Source of the DNA: Candidatus Altarchaeum sp.
GTDB lineage: Archaea; Altiarchaeota; Altiarchaeia; Altiarchaeales; Altiarchaeaceae
Length of the DNA: 5,525 bases
Assembly (NCBI GenBank): GCA_018260755.1
Contig: JAGTWP010000074.1
Location: forward strand, 1 to 5,525
Reading direction: 5' to 3'
Part shown: positions 616 through 5,525 of the stretch, one piece after another
Numbering within the stretch: position 1 is the first letter of the stretch
How the letters are laid out: every line of letters begins with the position of its first letter
Translations under genes and position numbers: made by a program
The notes under the pieces: generated by a model
The model's input: only the letters and a program-made list of their open reading frames with translations
Databases searched by the model: none
What the model was told of the DNA's origin: nothing

Positions 616-708
616 TAATATACACCCCGTCTAATATACAAAATAGTATAATTTTACTAAAAATTCTATTATCTAAACAAATACAAATTAACATCTCTTC
701 GTTCGGAT

Positions 709-743
709 ATTTAAAATTTATACGATTTTAAATGATTTTAAAT
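709..743. repeat. 9-bp inverted repeat plus a direct copy
   Basis: ATTTAAAAT (709-717) is the exact reverse complement of ATTTTAAAT at 725-733, with a 7-base spacer TTATACG. ATTTTAAAT then recurs at 735-743, so GATTTTAAAT is present twice in tandem (724-743). It lies about 50 bases upstream of the TATA-like box for the gene at 820, a plausible place for a regulator site. The AT-only arms make chance a real possibility. Confidence 0.45.
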
Positions 744-819: not shown

Positions 820-2109
820 ATGGAAAATTTTAAAAATTTTTTAGGAAAATGCAAAATGAATAGTGCGGGTAGTATTGGAACAGGCGTCTTTGTCGGATTT
901 GTTTTAGCCCTGATTTTATTCGCACTTGTCATGAATGTTGCTGCTGATGTTACGAGAGAAAATTTAAATAATGCCACAAATACAGATTATACTCTCCTGA
1001 AATACGATTATGAAATCTCCAAAAGCAATTATTTTGAGTCATTAGTATATTACAACGAAGCAAAGGCGGAGTGGCTCGTTTCAAGGCAAAAATATCTGGA
1101 AAACAAAAATGATGAAAATTATGAAATTTTTATTAAGTCAACAAAGAAATTTACTCTAAATATAGCAGTTGTTCTGGAAAATTATAATGAAATGTTAAAG
1201 AAAAGGGTCTTATCCGATGATTCGTTTGATGATATAACAAGAAATGAACAAATTTCACGAATTGACACATTGCTTGATAAAATAAGAGATATTAAAAAAC
1301 AACTAAATGAAACCACAAAATCACAACTGACTATAGAGACACTTAAAAATTTAAGCAGGGAATTACAAGAGACATACGCGCATTCACAACATATACGGGG
1401 AATGATTGTTACCATCCTATTAAAGAATAAGATGAAAATAGTACTTACCGACTTGGTTAACGATTCCTTAAAAATGAATGAAAATATTGCACAACTTAAG
1501 GCATCAGGACATAATACTACCGAGATGGAGAAAAAATTGTGCAAGCTAAATGAAATGTTAAATCAGTCGTATGCGAATTATCAAAAGTGCGTCAATCTTA
1601 TGAATCTGAGTACATCAGAGTCACTGGTAGAAGCAGAGGACTTATTTAAAAACACATACAAATCACTTTATCTGACAAAAAGCGAATTGTTGGATATCTA
1701 TAATTCAATACCCGGCGAATGGATAAGCAACTTGGAATCGGCAAATTCAACTTATGTGACAAAGGGAGACGGAAAAGCAGTAATAAATATAGATAAGACC
1801 GATAACGCAGATATTAAAATTTATGTTGTAGGGAGTGTGACATTAAAAGGAGACATAAGCAGTGCGGAAATTTCCCTTAAAAATTTAAAAGAGATTGAAT
1901 CCGGTGAAGGCAAAGCTTATGGAGGGGAAGGAAACATTGAAATTACTGGAAAAGATCTGATAATTGAGGTAAGCGGAAAGGATATAAATATAGCAATTGC
2001 AGGGAATGGAAATGCCACATTGACGGGAACAGGGACACAAAAAGCATGCGATAAAGGTCTGTGTAATACACTTCTATGGGAAGGAAAAAACATAAAATTT
2101 TCAAAATGA
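820..2109 (+). CDS. Membrane-anchored or secreted coiled-coil protein with beta-repeat C terminus
   Basis: The product has 429 residues and I do not recognise its family. A Lys-containing N terminus (residues 1-12) precedes one strongly hydrophobic segment at about 19-42, which ends VMNVAA and could be a membrane anchor or a signal peptide. Residues 50-300 are charged, rich in Leu, Lys, Glu and Asn, and predicted to be long helices or coiled coil. Residues 306-429 change to short alternating strands with Gly turns (ITGKD, VSGKD, AGNGNATLTGTGT), as in a stacked beta-repeat fold. Cysteines 410 and 415 (CX4C) near the end may form a disulfide. About nine N-X-S/T sequons, all after the hydrophobic segment, fit an outside location. 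The ATG at 820 is the first start after an in-frame stop; ATG 856 (M13), with AGGA nine bases before it, is an alternative but would lose the basic residues. It is the first gene of a cluster and its stop overlaps the next start in ATGA. A stalk or scaffold role is inference. Confidence 0.85.
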   Translation: MENFKNFLGKCKMNSAGSIGTGVFVGFVLALILFALVMNVAADVTRENLNNATNTDYTLLKYDYEISKSNYFESLVYYNEAKAEWLVSRQKYLENKNDENYEIFIKSTKKFTLNIAVVLENYNEMLKKRVLSDDSFDDITRNEQISRIDTLLDKIRDIKKQLNETTKSQLTIETLKNLSRELQETYAHSQHIRGMIVTILLKNKMKIVLTDLVNDSLKMNENIAQLKASGHNTTEMEKKLCKLNEMLNQSYANYQKCVNLMNLSTSESLVEAEDLFKNTYKSLYLTKSELLDIYNSIPGEWISNLESANSTYVTKGDGKAVINIDKTDNADIKIYVVGSVTLKGDISSAEISLKNLKEIESGEGKAYGGEGNIEITGKDLIIEVSGKDINIAIAGNGNATLTGTGTQKACDKGLCNTLLWEGKNIKFSK

Positions 2110-2423
2110 AAAATAAAATAGACAAAAAAATTTTGATTATAGTAATTTTACTTGTATTATCGCTATGTGCAGTAATATTCATCATCACACTCACAAATAC
2201 GGGAGAGTATCCTGAAGAAAATATAGGTGTGGAAGATATGTATCCAGAGGATTCTGCATCTTATCCCCCAGAAGATTCTTATCCTCCAGAAGATGAATAT
2301 CAGTCCCTTAACGAGATGGAACAGGCACTTAATGAAAGTGCTAACTACAACATATCAGAAATGGAAAAAGATATGAAAATATTAGAATCTACATTGGAAA
2401 ATGTCTCCCAAAACAAAACATAA
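2106..2423 (+). CDS. Small acidic membrane protein with Tyr-Pro repeats
   Basis: This 105-residue product is not a family I recognise. It begins MKNKIDKK, followed by one hydrophobic segment (about residues 8-31) that should anchor it with the rest outside. Residues 35-65 are very acidic and contain four Tyr-Pro motifs (YPEEN, YPEDS, YPPEDS, YPPEDE). Residues 66-105 look like an amphipathic helix or coiled coil with sequons NES, NIS, NVS and NKT. The SLC in the hydrophobic part is a poor lipobox because Leu, not a small residue, precedes Cys. I chose ATG 2106 because it overlaps the previous stop as ATGA, the usual sign of coupled translation. An in-frame ATG at 2076 would add MGRKKHKIFK and is possible. 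The 3' end overlaps the next gene by 23 bases. Its tight packing between two membrane proteins suggests a partner in one envelope complex (inference). Confidence 0.75.
   Translation: MKNKIDKKILIIVILLVLSLCAVIFIITLTNTGEYPEENIGVEDMYPEDSASYPPEDSYPPEDEYQSLNEMEQALNESANYNISEMEKDMKILESTLENVSQNKT
2208..2297 (+). repeat. Tyr-Pro-(Pro/Glu)-Glu-Asp coding repeats
   Basis: Four in-frame copies of a TATCC(A/T/C)... unit begin at 2208, 2241, 2262 and 2280. The last two are adjacent 18-base units (2262-2279 and 2280-2297) that share TATCC and CCAGAAGAT, so they look like a recent tandem duplication. The encoded stretch is acidic, rich in Pro and probably extended. Confidence 0.65.
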
Positions 2424-3468
2424 AAATTTTAGGAATTTTGTACATGCTGCTCTAATATTACTCTTAATGATACTTTTAACAAATGTAATTTTACAAGGTT
2501 CATTAGCAGCAGAAATTAAAGGAAAGGTTGTTGGAATAAACGGAGAAAATTTAAATGGCGCAGAAGTAAAAATTTATAATGGAACAAATCTTATGCAGAA
2601 TGTCGTAACCGTGAATGGAGTATATACTATAAATTTAAGTGAGGGAAATTACTTTGTCGTTGTGACATACATTGATAATAAAGAAAATTTATATATTGAC
2701 AGCATAAATTTAGCAATTGAACAAAATGAGACAAAATCAATGGACTTCTCGCTTATTGCCGCCTATACAAATTTTTCAGATACCTACATTCCCGCACTTG
2801 AAGATATATTTAAGATAGAAACAAATTTAACAGGCGGCTCACAACCAAATGGAAGTAACGACACAAATTTGCCAAACTCGGGAAATATTTCCTTAAACAT
2901 GCCGTTATTCATCATAATATTTATCCCTGTGATAATTCTTGTGTTTTTTTATATTTTTCATGTTTATTACAAGGCAAAAAAAGCAGAGGAGAAAATTGAT
3001 GAAGTTGAAACAATTATAAAAAAAACCGAAACCGGAAAAAAAGCAGAGGAAAAGCAACCCGTAATAATAACCTCTCCGATTACCCTAACAGCCACATCAT
3101 CAGATGCATCAGCAACCCCCCAATCAGCAGCCACAGACACAACTGTACCCCCATTGGCAGTGGCAGAGAGTAAAGCAGAGAAAAAAGAAGAAGATGCCGA
3201 TAAAAAAGAGCAATATAAAGATATGATTCAAAAAGAGAGAGAAAATTTATTGTTATCTTTAACTGAAAATGAGAGAAGTGTTATTAATCTTCTTATGGAA
3301 CATAACGGGGATTTATTAAGAACAGAGATATCGCGAGGTACAAATCTTCCAAAATCAAGTTTGGCGATGGCACTCAAAAAGTTAGAGGATAAAAAAATAA
3401 TAGAAATAGACAAGACATTTACAATCCATAAAGTTAAATTTACAGCATGGTTTAAATCCTTGTTGTAA
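2401..3468 (+). CDS. Membrane-tethered winged-helix regulator with an extracellular beta domain
   Basis: The 355-residue product shows four parts. Residues 1-36 are a signal peptide: basic N-region, hydrophobic core, likely cut near SLA/AE. Residues 38-118 (EIKGKVVGINGENLNGAEVK...) match the pattern of a carboxypeptidase-regulatory-like beta-sandwich. After an Asn/Thr/Ser-rich linker, residues 168-190 form a transmembrane helix followed by Lys-rich KAKKAEEK. A charged, then Ala/Ser/Thr/Pro-rich linker (about 191-285) leads to a winged helix at 286-355, with LTENERSVINLL as first helix and LPKSSLAMALKKLE as putative recognition helix. All eight sequons are before the membrane helix, none after, supporting an outside N part and inside DNA-binding part. 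This matches the archaeal COG2512-type architecture (family recalled, not searched). ATG 2401 is the only ATG after the in-frame TAG at 2383, and only GGA at 2396-2398 precedes it. The likely role is a one-component envelope sensor and transcription regulator; ligand and targets are unknown. Confidence 0.85.
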   Translation: MSPKTKHKNFRNFVHAALILLLMILLTNVILQGSLAAEIKGKVVGINGENLNGAEVKIYNGTNLMQNVVTVNGVYTINLSEGNYFVVVTYIDNKENLYIDSINLAIEQNETKSMDFSLIAAYTNFSDTYIPALEDIFKIETNLTGGSQPNGSNDTNLPNSGNISLNMPLFIIIFIPVIILVFFYIFHVYYKAKKAEEKIDEVETIIKKTETGKKAEEKQPVIITSPITLTATSSDASATPQSAATDTTVPPLAVAESKAEKKEEDADKKEQYKDMIQKERENLLLSLTENERSVINLLMEHNGDLLRTEISRGTNLPKSSLAMALKKLEDKKIIEIDKTFTIHKVKFTAWFKSLL

Positions 3469-3509: not shown

Positions 3510-5525
3510 ATGAAGGGTAAAAAAATTGTGCTTTTGACAGGTTTATTTTTATTGTTGAGTATGGCTTATGTAACTCTTACTGCACCTCTATTTATAGAAA
3601 AAACAGCAAGCACATCAACATCAGAGCCGGGAAATTTTACTGACTTTACAATAAAAATTCAAAATAACGAGTCGGGAAATATTAGTAAAATAAACATTAC
3701 CGACTTGCTGCCAAAAGGATGGAAATTTAATAAAACACTGAATGAAACGGAAAATTTTGCAAGTATAAAATATGAAAGAACTTGGAAGAATTGTACAACT
3801 ATCTCATGTAATCCAAATCCAATTTCTGGAAATGTTACCTGCACTTCAATTTCAGATTTAAAATATAATAGAACATGGGATGATGCAAATACAGAAACAT
3901 CCTATCAGGGAAACAGACAATTAGTCAGATGGAATTTAACCCACCTTGAAAACATAACAGGTTGTTTCGTTACAAGTTGTAATGCATTATTATTATGCAC
4001 ATTTGCAGGAACATCAATTCCTGATGACAGATTATTTCCAGGTGAAAATATAAGCTTGATATTTAAAGCTCGTACAACTTCAAATGCAAGCGAAGGGATA
4101 AATATTAATAACGCGAGTGCCGAAGGAATAAACGAAAGCGGGAATGCTATAGGTGTTACAAAGACATTGGCGAATGTTACAGTTTATTATCCTTATGCTC
4201 AGGTAAAGAAAACATGGGAACAAACAACAGAACCGGGAAATTTAACAAAGGTCTCAATAAATTTAACAAATATCGGAAATGCAACTCTTAAGACCATAAC
4301 CATAACAGATCATTTACCTGCCTGCTTTGAATATAAAAATAATTTAACCCTTGAAGGAATCGTTATTGAAAATAAAACATGGGGATATAAAGGACCTGTA
4401 AATGCAAGTGATAGTAACGGAACAGATGTAACTGCAAAGGTAAATACTTCCGATAATGTCAGAGCAACAAAAACATTGTCCTATTTAGGAGATTCTTATG
4501 CAGTTAATGGAACATTCAATACAAGCATTTATAATGTAACAAGCATCAATAATGCCGCTGTTGTTTGCGAGGTTTATGCTGGAACAACAGTAACAACAGG
4601 GATAAATGTAAATATCTCGTGGTTTAACAAAACATCAGGACAATGGCAAGAAGTTTGTATTGGAACTGCAAATTTAGCAATTAGTGAAAATGATGCAAAT
4701 TTTACTTGTAATGATTCAAACAGCAATATAACTAAAATTATAAAAGAGGACATTACAACGCCTAAATTTAAGTGTAATATTACAAATTCAACACCTTTAA
4801 CAGGGGGGGTTGCATTTGGTTTTGATTTTCTCGGATTAGAGATAAATTACACTCCTTCAATAGTTAATAATATTACAATTCAAGAAGCAGATAATCAGCA
4901 AAATATAACATTTTCCCTTGAAGGTGACTTTTTGTTAAAACCGAACCAAGGTGTAATTTTAAATTTTTCTGTTCATACAAAAAGTTGTGCAATAGAAGGA
5001 CAAAATGAAAATTTTGCAAATGCAACAGGATTGGATTTAGATAATAATCAAACAACAGTTACAATTACTGCGGATACAACAAACATTACTGTTTATAAAG
5101 CCGACTTGAATGTTTCAAAGAGTGTTGAGTCAAACACAATAGAGCGGGGAAATTTAACAACTTATACAATAAGAGTAACAAATTTAGCAACAAGTAACGC
5201 ATCAGCTAGAAATATAACAATTAATGATACTTTACCTTTATGCTTTGAATATTTTGATACGATTAATCTAATCTACAATAATGGCTCTGTTATATTTCTA
5301 AACTATAACATTTCTAATATTTCTTATTCAAATACCATACAACAAAATATTGGTTGGTTTAATTTTACAAATACAAGTATAAGCGATGTTGTTCTTGCGT
5401 CCGGAGAATATATTGAAGTTGTATTTAGAAATTATGTGCATTCCTGTGCAAACGAAGGTTACGGACACACAAATTTTGCAAATGCGACGGGATTTGATTT
5501 GGATGATGGAACATTAACGAATGTT
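3510..5525 (+). CDS. Large secreted surface protein with DUF11-like modules (3' end outside window)
   Basis: The frame stays open from ATG 3510 to the last base, giving 672 codons with no stop. Residues 1-25 are a signal peptide (KGKK, then a hydrophobic core; cut near SMA/Y or TLTA). Three DUF11-like modules start near residues 31, 231 and 531, each with K(T/S)...(E)PGN or ERGN, then alternating strands and a D(L/H/T)LP turn (residues 67-68, 269-270, 575-576). Modules two and three continue as CFEY and later share SCA-EG...NFANATG. About 52 N-X-S/T sequons, roughly one per 13 residues, and 14 cysteines indicate a heavily glycosylated, disulfide-stabilised outside protein. DUF11 repeats are known from archaeal and bacterial cell-surface and S-layer-like proteins. 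It lies 41 bases after the membrane regulator, same strand; no ribosome binding site is visible. Adhesin, S-layer component or sheath protein are all possible; the C-terminal anchor is not seen. Confidence 0.88.
   Translation, partial: MKGKKIVLLTGLFLLLSMAYVTLTAPLFIEKTASTSTSEPGNFTDFTIKIQNNESGNISKINITDLLPKGWKFNKTLNETENFASIKYERTWKNCTTISCNPNPISGNVTCTSISDLKYNRTWDDANTETSYQGNRQLVRWNLTHLENITGCFVTSCNALLLCTFAGTSIPDDRLFPGENISLIFKARTTSNASEGININNASAEGINESGNAIGVTKTLANVTVYYPYAQVKKTWEQTTEPGNLTKVSINLTNIGNATLKTITITDHLPACFEYKNNLTLEGIVIENKTWGYKGPVNASDSNGTDVTAKVNTSDNVRATKTLSYLGDSYAVNGTFNTSIYNVTSINNAAVVCEVYAGTTVTTGINVNISWFNKTSGQWQEVCIGTANLAISENDANFTCNDSNSNITKIIKEDITTPKFKCNITNSTPLTGGVAFGFDFLGLEINYTPSIVNNITIQEADNQQNITFSLEGDFLLKPNQGVILNFSVHTKSCAIEGQNENFANATGLDLDNNQTTVTITADTTNITVYKADLNVSKSVESNTIERGNLTTYTIRVTNLATSNASARNITINDTLPLCFEYFDTINLIYNNGSVIFLNYNISNISYSNTIQQNIGWFNFTNTSISDVVLASGEYIEVVFRNYVHSCANEGYGHTNFANATGFDLDDGTLTNV
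3600..3728 (+). repeat. DUF11-like module A, conserved N-terminal part
   Basis: Encodes the first module from KTAS (residue 31) to LLPKGWKF. The motif EPGNFT (residue 39 onward) aligns with EPGNLT at residue 241 and ERGNLT at residue 545. It differs from the other two in having GW rather than CFEY after the LP turn. Confidence 0.65.
4200..5042 (+). repeat. DUF11-like module B, long form
   Basis: Runs from residue 231 (QVKKTW) through LPACFEY (C272) to SCAIEG (C493) and NFANATGLDLD. The distance from CFEY to SCA is 221 residues here and only 68 in module C, so this copy carries about 150 extra residues (roughly 310-460) including cysteines in EVYAG-, EVCIG-, FTCND- and FKCNI- contexts. Confidence 0.65.
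4803..4809 (+). repeat. G7 homopolymer inside the surface-protein gene
   Basis: Seven consecutive G bases encode Gly-Gly-Val (ACA GGG GGG GTT) in a gene that is otherwise strongly AT-rich. Loss of one G would give a TAG about 11 codons on (in ...TCG GAT TAG), and gain of one G would give a TGA after about six codons. Either change would cut the protein, as in contingency loci. It may also be a sequencing-error hotspot. Confidence 0.7.
5100..5504 (+). repeat. DUF11-like module C, short form
   Basis: Runs from residue 531 (ADLNVSKS) through ERGNLT, LPLCFEY (C578) and SCANEG (C646) to NFANATGFDLD. The final block (5442-5504) matches the end of module B (4983-5042) in amino acids and in many bases, for example TTTGCAAATGC(A/G)AC, so B and C derive from a duplication. 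Confidence 0.7.

Follow-up and report, generated by a model that had tools for sequence, protein, structure and literature searches.

Introduction

Transmembrane transcription regulators (TTRs) are widespread in archaea, 1,384 archaeal members being counted by Demey et al. (2023, PMC10269533). ArnR and ArnR1 of Sulfolobus acidocaldarius, described in what its authors call the first biochemical study of such regulators, show that archaeal membrane regulators bind the promoters of surface structures (PMC6396743). In this study, we report the analysis of a locus of Candidatus Altarchaeum in which the third gene encodes a protein that is best explained as a one-component, single-pass TTR acting at adjacent surface genes, a reading to which we assign a probability of roughly 0.6. 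To our knowledge, biochemistry on archaeal membrane-tethered regulators is limited to ArnR and ArnR1, and the targets and signals of the others are mostly undescribed.

Genomic Context and Domain Organization

The window (the whole 5,525-nucleotide stretch analysed) corresponds to the whole of contig C35 in a draft genome of Ca. Altarchaeum (G000) that measures 1.32 Mb. It holds four head-to-tail genes, namely A, B, the regulator and a DUF11-repeat surface protein (gene D; PF01345 match, E 9e-15), and their features are collected in Table 1. An orthologue alignment used as the query yielded related loci in Ca. Altarchaeum sp. CG2_30_32_3053 and Ca. Altarchaeum HURL_140. The regulator orthologues of these two genomes showed 79 and 66% identity, and the gene order A, regulator, DUF11 protein is repeated in both (three genomes in total); gene B is recognisable in HURL_140, where it is duplicated. 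With the regulator protein alone as the query, no relatives were found in the genome contigs, and the specificity of a diverse winged-helix (wHTH) alignment was too low. No relatives were found in the viral contigs searched. In the operon leader, a 15-bp AT-rich unit (TAATATAAATACTTT) is also repeated in tandem, almost perfectly, 5.7 times (positions 531-615 of the window).

The hydrophobic N-terminal stretch of the regulator, ending in ...LAAE, is most likely a signal peptide. Three of the eight sequons lie within the ectodomain that follows it and five in the stalk between this domain and the membrane, and the middle part of the cytoplasmic linker is poorly conserved among orthologues. TTRs are recognised by at least one transmembrane segment, which is present in the regulator and in all 24 pooled homologues, and by a DNA-binding domain in the same chain, which is indicated by the winged-helix model and by helix-turn-helix Pfam matches. 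The positive-inside rule and the sequon asymmetry, both set out below, place this DNA-binding domain, on sequence grounds, on the cytoplasmic side. At the level of Pfam, the ectodomain scored 24.8 bits against PF13620 (CarboxypepD_reg), under the cut-off of 32.3, which the HURL_140 orthologue passes with 33.1. The nearest models of the C-terminus, DUF7343 and MarR_2, are likewise below cut-off in the regulator and above it in that orthologue; for DUF7343 (PF24034) the scores are 23.2 and 29.0 bits, with a gathering cut-off of 27.6.

A full-length AlphaFold2 prediction based on a three-sequence alignment was poor (mean pLDDT 48.7), especially at the C-terminus; it placed strands over residues 37-122 with pLDDT values of about 50-70. 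Compared with the PDB, this ectodomain model matched the transthyretin-like (TTL) domains of carboxypeptidases D and N over 77-78 aligned residues, with Z 10.9 and rmsd 1.7, which agrees with the CarboxypepD_reg match, sub-threshold in the regulator and above cut-off in the HURL_140 orthologue. Residues 262-355 (94 aa), modelled alone, gave a winged helix with pLDDT 79.2, consisting of helices 289-300, 307-314 and 318-330 and wing strands 334-337 and 344-347. This model matched MarR-type regulators with Z of about 11, including the SlyA-DNA and HpaR-DNA complexes, and its fold matches also include the centromere-binding proteins TubR and AspA/pNOB8. A phmmer search of the regulator against PDB sequences gave nothing significant. 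The original prediction had placed a winged helix at residues 286-355 and had proposed structure prediction of the ectodomain region; the models thus agree with the former and suggest a transthyretin-like fold for the latter.

Table 1. Features of the analysed locus (positions in the window) and copies of the related ED-wHTH genes (positions in their loci).
Feature	Position	Strand	Remarks
Candidate operator/promoter element (weak)	695..715	+	Around GTTCGGATATTTAAAA; upstream of gene A
Operon gene A	820..2109	+	Membrane-anchored secreted protein, 429 aa, no assigned function; upstream of regulator in three genomes
Operon gene B	2106..2423	+	Small single-TM protein, ~105 aa; 23-base overlap with regulator start
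Regulator (TTR, best explanation)	2401..3468	+	Single-pass membrane-tethered winged-helix protein, 355 aa; intact ORF, ATG to TAA
Probable signal peptide	2401..2511	+	Residues 1-37 (...SLAA/E); hydrophobic 13-31; SLAAE invariant in three orthologues
Transthyretin-like / carboxypeptidase-regulatory-like ectodomain	2509..2766	+	Residues 37-122; PF13620 E 2.9e-5; predicted strands
Sequon span (eight N-X-S/T)	2578..2892	+	Residues 60, 78, 109, 124, 142, 150, 153, 162; direct count and shuffle test
Sequon-rich membrane-proximal stalk	2767..2901	+	Residues 123-167; predicted mostly unstructured, pLDDT <50 over 123-166
Membrane helix	2902..2958	+	Residues 168-186, hydropathy 3.0; model helix 167-213 continues on inside
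Cytoplasmic charged / low-complexity linker	2959..3255	+	Residues 187-285; sequence, low pLDDT
C-terminal winged helix	3256..3465	+	Recognition helix ~residues 318-330 (KSSLAMALKKLED); Pfam, model, fold matches, tree
Operon gene D	3510..5525	+	Secreted DUF11-repeat surface protein; contig end cuts gene; 41 bases 3' of regulator
ED-wHTH copy (G000:C56)	L044:12192-12977
ED-wHTH copies (G003:C104)	L101:9104-9799, 12008-12517, 4334-5488

Membrane Topology and Sequon Distribution

Eight sequons had been noted before the membrane helix and none after it, and a direct count in the 355-aa ORF gave the same numbers. Of the roughly 166 residues counted before the helix, about 37 are signal peptide, and the mature outside part has about 130 aa. 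When the outside segment was shuffled, 2.98 sequons were expected versus the 8 seen (P of at least 8 = 0.0018), while in the inside segment, with only 5 Asn in 169 aa, 0.83 were expected versus 0 seen (P of 0 = 0.40). The fraction of Asn residues lying in a sequon was 8/21 outside versus 0/5 inside (Fisher P = 0.28, regulator alone). For the regulator taken by itself, the outside excess is therefore significant and the inside zero comes mostly from the low Asn content.

The contrast became much stronger when 24 homologues sharing the same layout were pooled, with 89 sequons in 4300 aa outside (46.4 expected, 1.9x) and 5 in 2777 aa inside (15.6 expected, 0.32x). The Fisher P value of this comparison was 6e-10, and 1.6e-7 with the own genus left out, values which are optimistic because the homologues are related. 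The reversed motif S/T-X-N gave a much smaller contrast in the same proteins (56 outside versus 10 inside). Sequons equally common on both sides in homologues would speak against the original prediction, and the pool is strongly unequal. The rule is strong and not absolute, since paralogue G003:C100 has two sequons just inside the membrane. In addition, the N-out/C-in topology was upheld by a criterion independent of sequons, as Lys plus Arg beside the helix were more numerous inside than outside in 23 of the 24 homologues (positive-inside rule); the regulator itself has 0 K/R in the 15 residues outside the helix and 4 in the 15 inside.

The same bias was found across the own genome, where proteins whose sole membrane feature is an N-terminal signal or anchor contained 1.82x the sequons expected from composition and proteins without membrane segments 0.96x. 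For these two groups the reversed-motif control gave 1.15 versus 0.98 and the N-x-x-S/T control 0.85 versus 0.98. The genome encodes an AglB/STT3-like oligosaccharyltransferase with WWDYG (G000:C46; AglB_core match over cut-off), so that this genome combines exported-side sequons with an oligosaccharyltransferase gene, the two sequence features expected for an AglB substrate. N-glycosylation is plausible because of this gene and of the 1.8-fold sequon enrichment in secreted proteins, and the ectodomain and stalk are most likely N-glycosylated by AglB, as judged from sequence. It must be noted that the single sites show no special conservation, 4 of the 8 retaining the motif in each of the three orthologues. 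The AglB/STT3-like protein (L045:9831-13787), of 1319 aa, has weak C-terminal thioredoxin/DSBA-like matches, below cut-off, which would make it an unusual fusion.

Two membranes separated by a periplasm of about 32 nm have been described in the type species of the genus, Ca. A. hamiconexum (PMC4460559). Therefore, the outside of the regulator may be a periplasm, and by analogy with that related species its ectodomain probably faces this space. Taken together, the sequon asymmetry, the positive-inside rule and the models of the TTL ectodomain and winged helix favour the one-piece envelope-to-DNA sensor that had been proposed, and its interpretation as an outside sensor domain joined to an inside winged helix is supported. 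The sequon test also provides a cheap topology readout for tethered regulators in genomes with AglB.

DNA Sites Next to Related Regulators

Homologues with the same layout and different ectodomains were found across Altiarchaeia and beyond. In 13 Altiarchaeia genomes (G005, 6, 8, 9, 10, 13, 14, 15, 17, 18, 19, 21 and 23; loci L106, L107, L113, L114, L116 and L171-L178), an S-layer-like gene is immediately preceded, on the same strand, by a TTR homologue. S-layer-like genes were defined by S_layer_C (PF05124) over cut-off; the S_layer_N (PF05123) profile did not recognise their products. The gap between the TTR and S-layer-like genes measures 176-292 bp and has a conserved layout, with two G[AG]ACNTT sites exactly 30 bp apart, followed by GTTC/GTCC half-sites and then TATATA. 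The TATA box lies about 40, 50 or 60 bp past the second site (six promoters, measured by eye), spacings that differ stepwise by about one turn of the helix. The 30-bp-spaced GRACNTT pair was present in 11 of the 13 gaps, the maximum in 500 shuffled sets being 1 of 13, and when 29 genomes were scanned for it, 14 of the 36 matches were S-layer promoters, which were the sole match in eight genomes.

G012 has its TTR and S-layer genes 470 kb apart, and the GRACNTT pair still precedes the S-layer gene, with no GAAC/GTTC found 3' of the TTR gene; the sites therefore go with the presumed target. The pair was absent before the S-layer-like genes of G007 and Altarchaeum, which have no such TTR adjoining. 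A small conserved gene starting MADKPILEKxFNE usually lies upstream of the S-layer-linked TTR. We also considered a linked TTR as controlling the hamus-like S-layer gene of Altarchaeum, a candidate that was rejected as no TTR lies upstream of this gene in G002 or G003. In G002 (C243, L170:5607-8291), an Altarchaeum PF05124 protein without upstream TTR or GRACNTT pair adjoins an acylphosphatase-like gene, and an acylphosphatase-like gene is the reported neighbour of the hamus gene (PMC4460559).

The S-layer-linked subfamily has a different ectodomain and forms a separate clade from the window regulator in a tree of 34 wHTH domains. In this tree the three window orthologues grouped with G003:C100, the ED-wHTH proteins and the proteins of G010, G028 and G039 in a clade of nine (99/93). 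The genes of the other members of the clade are all located 5' of GAAC/GTTC arrays, either GAAC-N4-GTTC palindromes or GTTC direct repeats. That of G003:C100 is followed by GAACGGTTGTTC and GAACGGTCGTTC and then by a secreted gene; the ED-wHTH copies are followed by GGAACAAAAGTTC, GTTCRG and a TATA box; and those of G010, G028 and G039 by direct repeats of GTTC, most of them spaced by 10 bp, past which the next called gene is on the opposite strand in G010 and G028. Overall, the arrays 3' of these nearest relatives mostly precede secreted genes. In the 1.22 Mb of the own genome that were scanned, GAAC-N4-GTTC occurs 10 times, and the two intergenic cases are both directly 3' of ED-wHTH genes. 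Half-sites 3' of all non-S-layer TTR genes numbered 39 versus 16.5 expected (shuffle maximum 28), the motif having been first recognised in S-layer gaps and then tested elsewhere by the same analyst.

In the ED-wHTH proteins, a TTR-type winged helix is joined to the editing domain of archaeal threonyl-tRNA synthetase (PF08915, E 3e-41), and by their sequence they look like regulators built from a tRNA-editing domain. Those of G003 adjoin a full ThrRS gene, and past the GGAACAAAAGTTC that follows each gene, most copies are succeeded by a gene for a small secreted MDKLKTGFLVV protein. Beside the ED-wHTH genes of both genomes (L044 and L101) there is a repeated cassette of anchored proteins of about 290 aa with the motif FKVGDKFKY.

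At the window locus itself, a GAAC/GTTC array was sought in the 819 bp upstream, which contained 3 half-sites versus 2.6 expected and no array. The weak candidate element of Table 1 includes GTTCGG..TATTTA at position 701, the only promoter-placed case in the 1.22 Mb of the own genome, for a pattern chosen post hoc. GTTCGG occurs at 12 upstream places in this genome, several of them inside the TTCGTTCGGAGATTTT repeat, and the element was not conserved at the two orthologous loci. A sequence around GTTCGGAGATTTT recurs 26-78 bp before gene starts in the same genome (L229:17677, L046:7347, L050:701, L052:1070 and L088:1254). An apparently conserved block upstream of gene A (ACAAATAYAATTTTACYAAAA) was discarded, as it reflected a poor alignment of three AT-rich leaders and does not recur in the genome. 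Because there is no array at the window locus, we infer the target of this regulator, the likeliest being its own A-B-TTR-DUF11 operon.

Proposed Mechanism and Alternative Explanations

Under the TTR reading, the signal peptide would direct the transthyretin-like beta-sandwich and the stalk with its many sequons across the inner membrane, on whose outer side they would most likely be N-glycosylated, while the single helix would span the membrane and the flexible linker would hold the MarR-like winged helix in the cytoplasm. A change at the surface or in the periplasm, such as a surface protein or glycan being bound, or its absence, would change how the tethered winged helices dimerise or where they sit. 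The winged helices would bind GAAC/GTTC-type half-sites near the promoter and so set the expression of the adjacent surface-protein genes. In both the close paralogues and the class-wide S-layer subfamily, conserved predicted sites lie directly before the neighbouring surface gene. Adjacency and conserved DNA are not proof of binding, and these putative sites are to be read as operator-like only; for the regulator itself, we infer DNA binding, ligand and direction of regulation.

Winged helices are versatile and are also used in plasmid partition and in protein-protein contacts. The regulator could then be a scaffold of the surface or envelope whose cytoplasmic winged helix has no part in transcription control and, for example, anchors DNA or another protein to the membrane. 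The matches to TubR and AspA/pNOB8 and the lack of an array at the window locus are consistent with this, but the operator-like sites directly 3' of the wHTH relatives, mostly before secreted genes, fit gene regulation better than general tethering, and we consider such a scaffold unlikely. Regulated intramembrane proteolysis is common in other systems, and the cytoplasmic linker that separates the wHTH from the membrane, being long and disordered, would suit a DNA-binding part that is freed in this way to work in soluble form as a repressor or activator. This is equally improbable, as no recognisable protease gene occurs in the cassette in three genomes, no cleavage site was identified, and ArnR and ArnR1 bound DNA when purified as membrane proteins of full length (PMC6396743). 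Least probable of all is that the sequon asymmetry is an effect of composition only (secreted domains being rich in Asn and Thr, and the genome in AT) and silent on glycosylation, which agrees with the inside zero expected from few Asn in the regulator alone (P = 0.40) and with the conservation at only half of the sites, but not with the composition-corrected pooled values, the little or no excess of reversed and shifted motifs in the secreted proteins of the own genome, or the presence of an AglB gene.

The TTR reading can be extended, tentatively and with somewhat less than even confidence, to the whole group. The tethered wHTH regulators of Altiarchaeia with glycosylated ectodomains would then be surface-layer homeostasis switches, each sensing the condition of the cell surface and acting via phased GAAC/GTTC arrays before the adjacent surface gene, S-layer-like in most genera, and the window protein would be a switch of the same kind redirected to a DUF11 surface-protein cassette, in an archaeon with two membranes. 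If true, the control of an archaeal surface coat would be tied to a sensor beneath that coat. The predicted target (the S-layer-like gene) and sites (the GRACNTT pair 30 bp apart and GAAC-N4-GTTC) can be tested with purified winged helices and need no culture.

Comparison with Known Systems

The regulator shares with TTRs their one-component plan of at least one membrane helix and a DNA-binding domain, and the accessible sections of the TTR survey (PMC10269533) give no function, target or site for its subfamily and do not describe its ectodomain family or operon. ArnR and ArnR1 are likewise archaeal and membrane-bound and regulate surface-structure genes (archaellum and pili), but they have an N-terminal HTH, a HAMP-like and a sensor domain near the anchors and two C-terminal TM helices (PMC6396743), whereas the window regulator has an exported N-terminal sensor, a C-terminal wHTH and one TM helix plus a signal peptide. 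In the archaeal membrane-associated wHTH proteins of COG2512/DUF7343, as here, a membrane helix is followed by a winged helix of MarR/DUF7343-like type at the C-terminus; DUF7343 is over cut-off in the HURL_140 orthologue and below it in the window regulator, which is thus without formal membership. A search of the available literature on DUF7343, COG2512 and archaeal S-layer regulators of this type found nothing useful.

Among bacteria, the ToxR-type TTRs may work alike, by analogy, as they have a membrane-tethered DNA-binding domain that reads an extracytoplasmic domain. The DNA-binding domain of ToxR is cytoplasmic and N-terminal, so its polarity is opposite to that of the window regulator. 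With the carboxypeptidase regulatory or transthyretin-like proteins (PF13620) the ectodomain has its fold in common (Z 10.9), and there is no peptidase here, the TTL domain being the outside part of a regulator. In summary, the TTR class was already known, and what the comparison of sequences appears to add is the linkage to S-layer and other surface genes together with the predicted sites.
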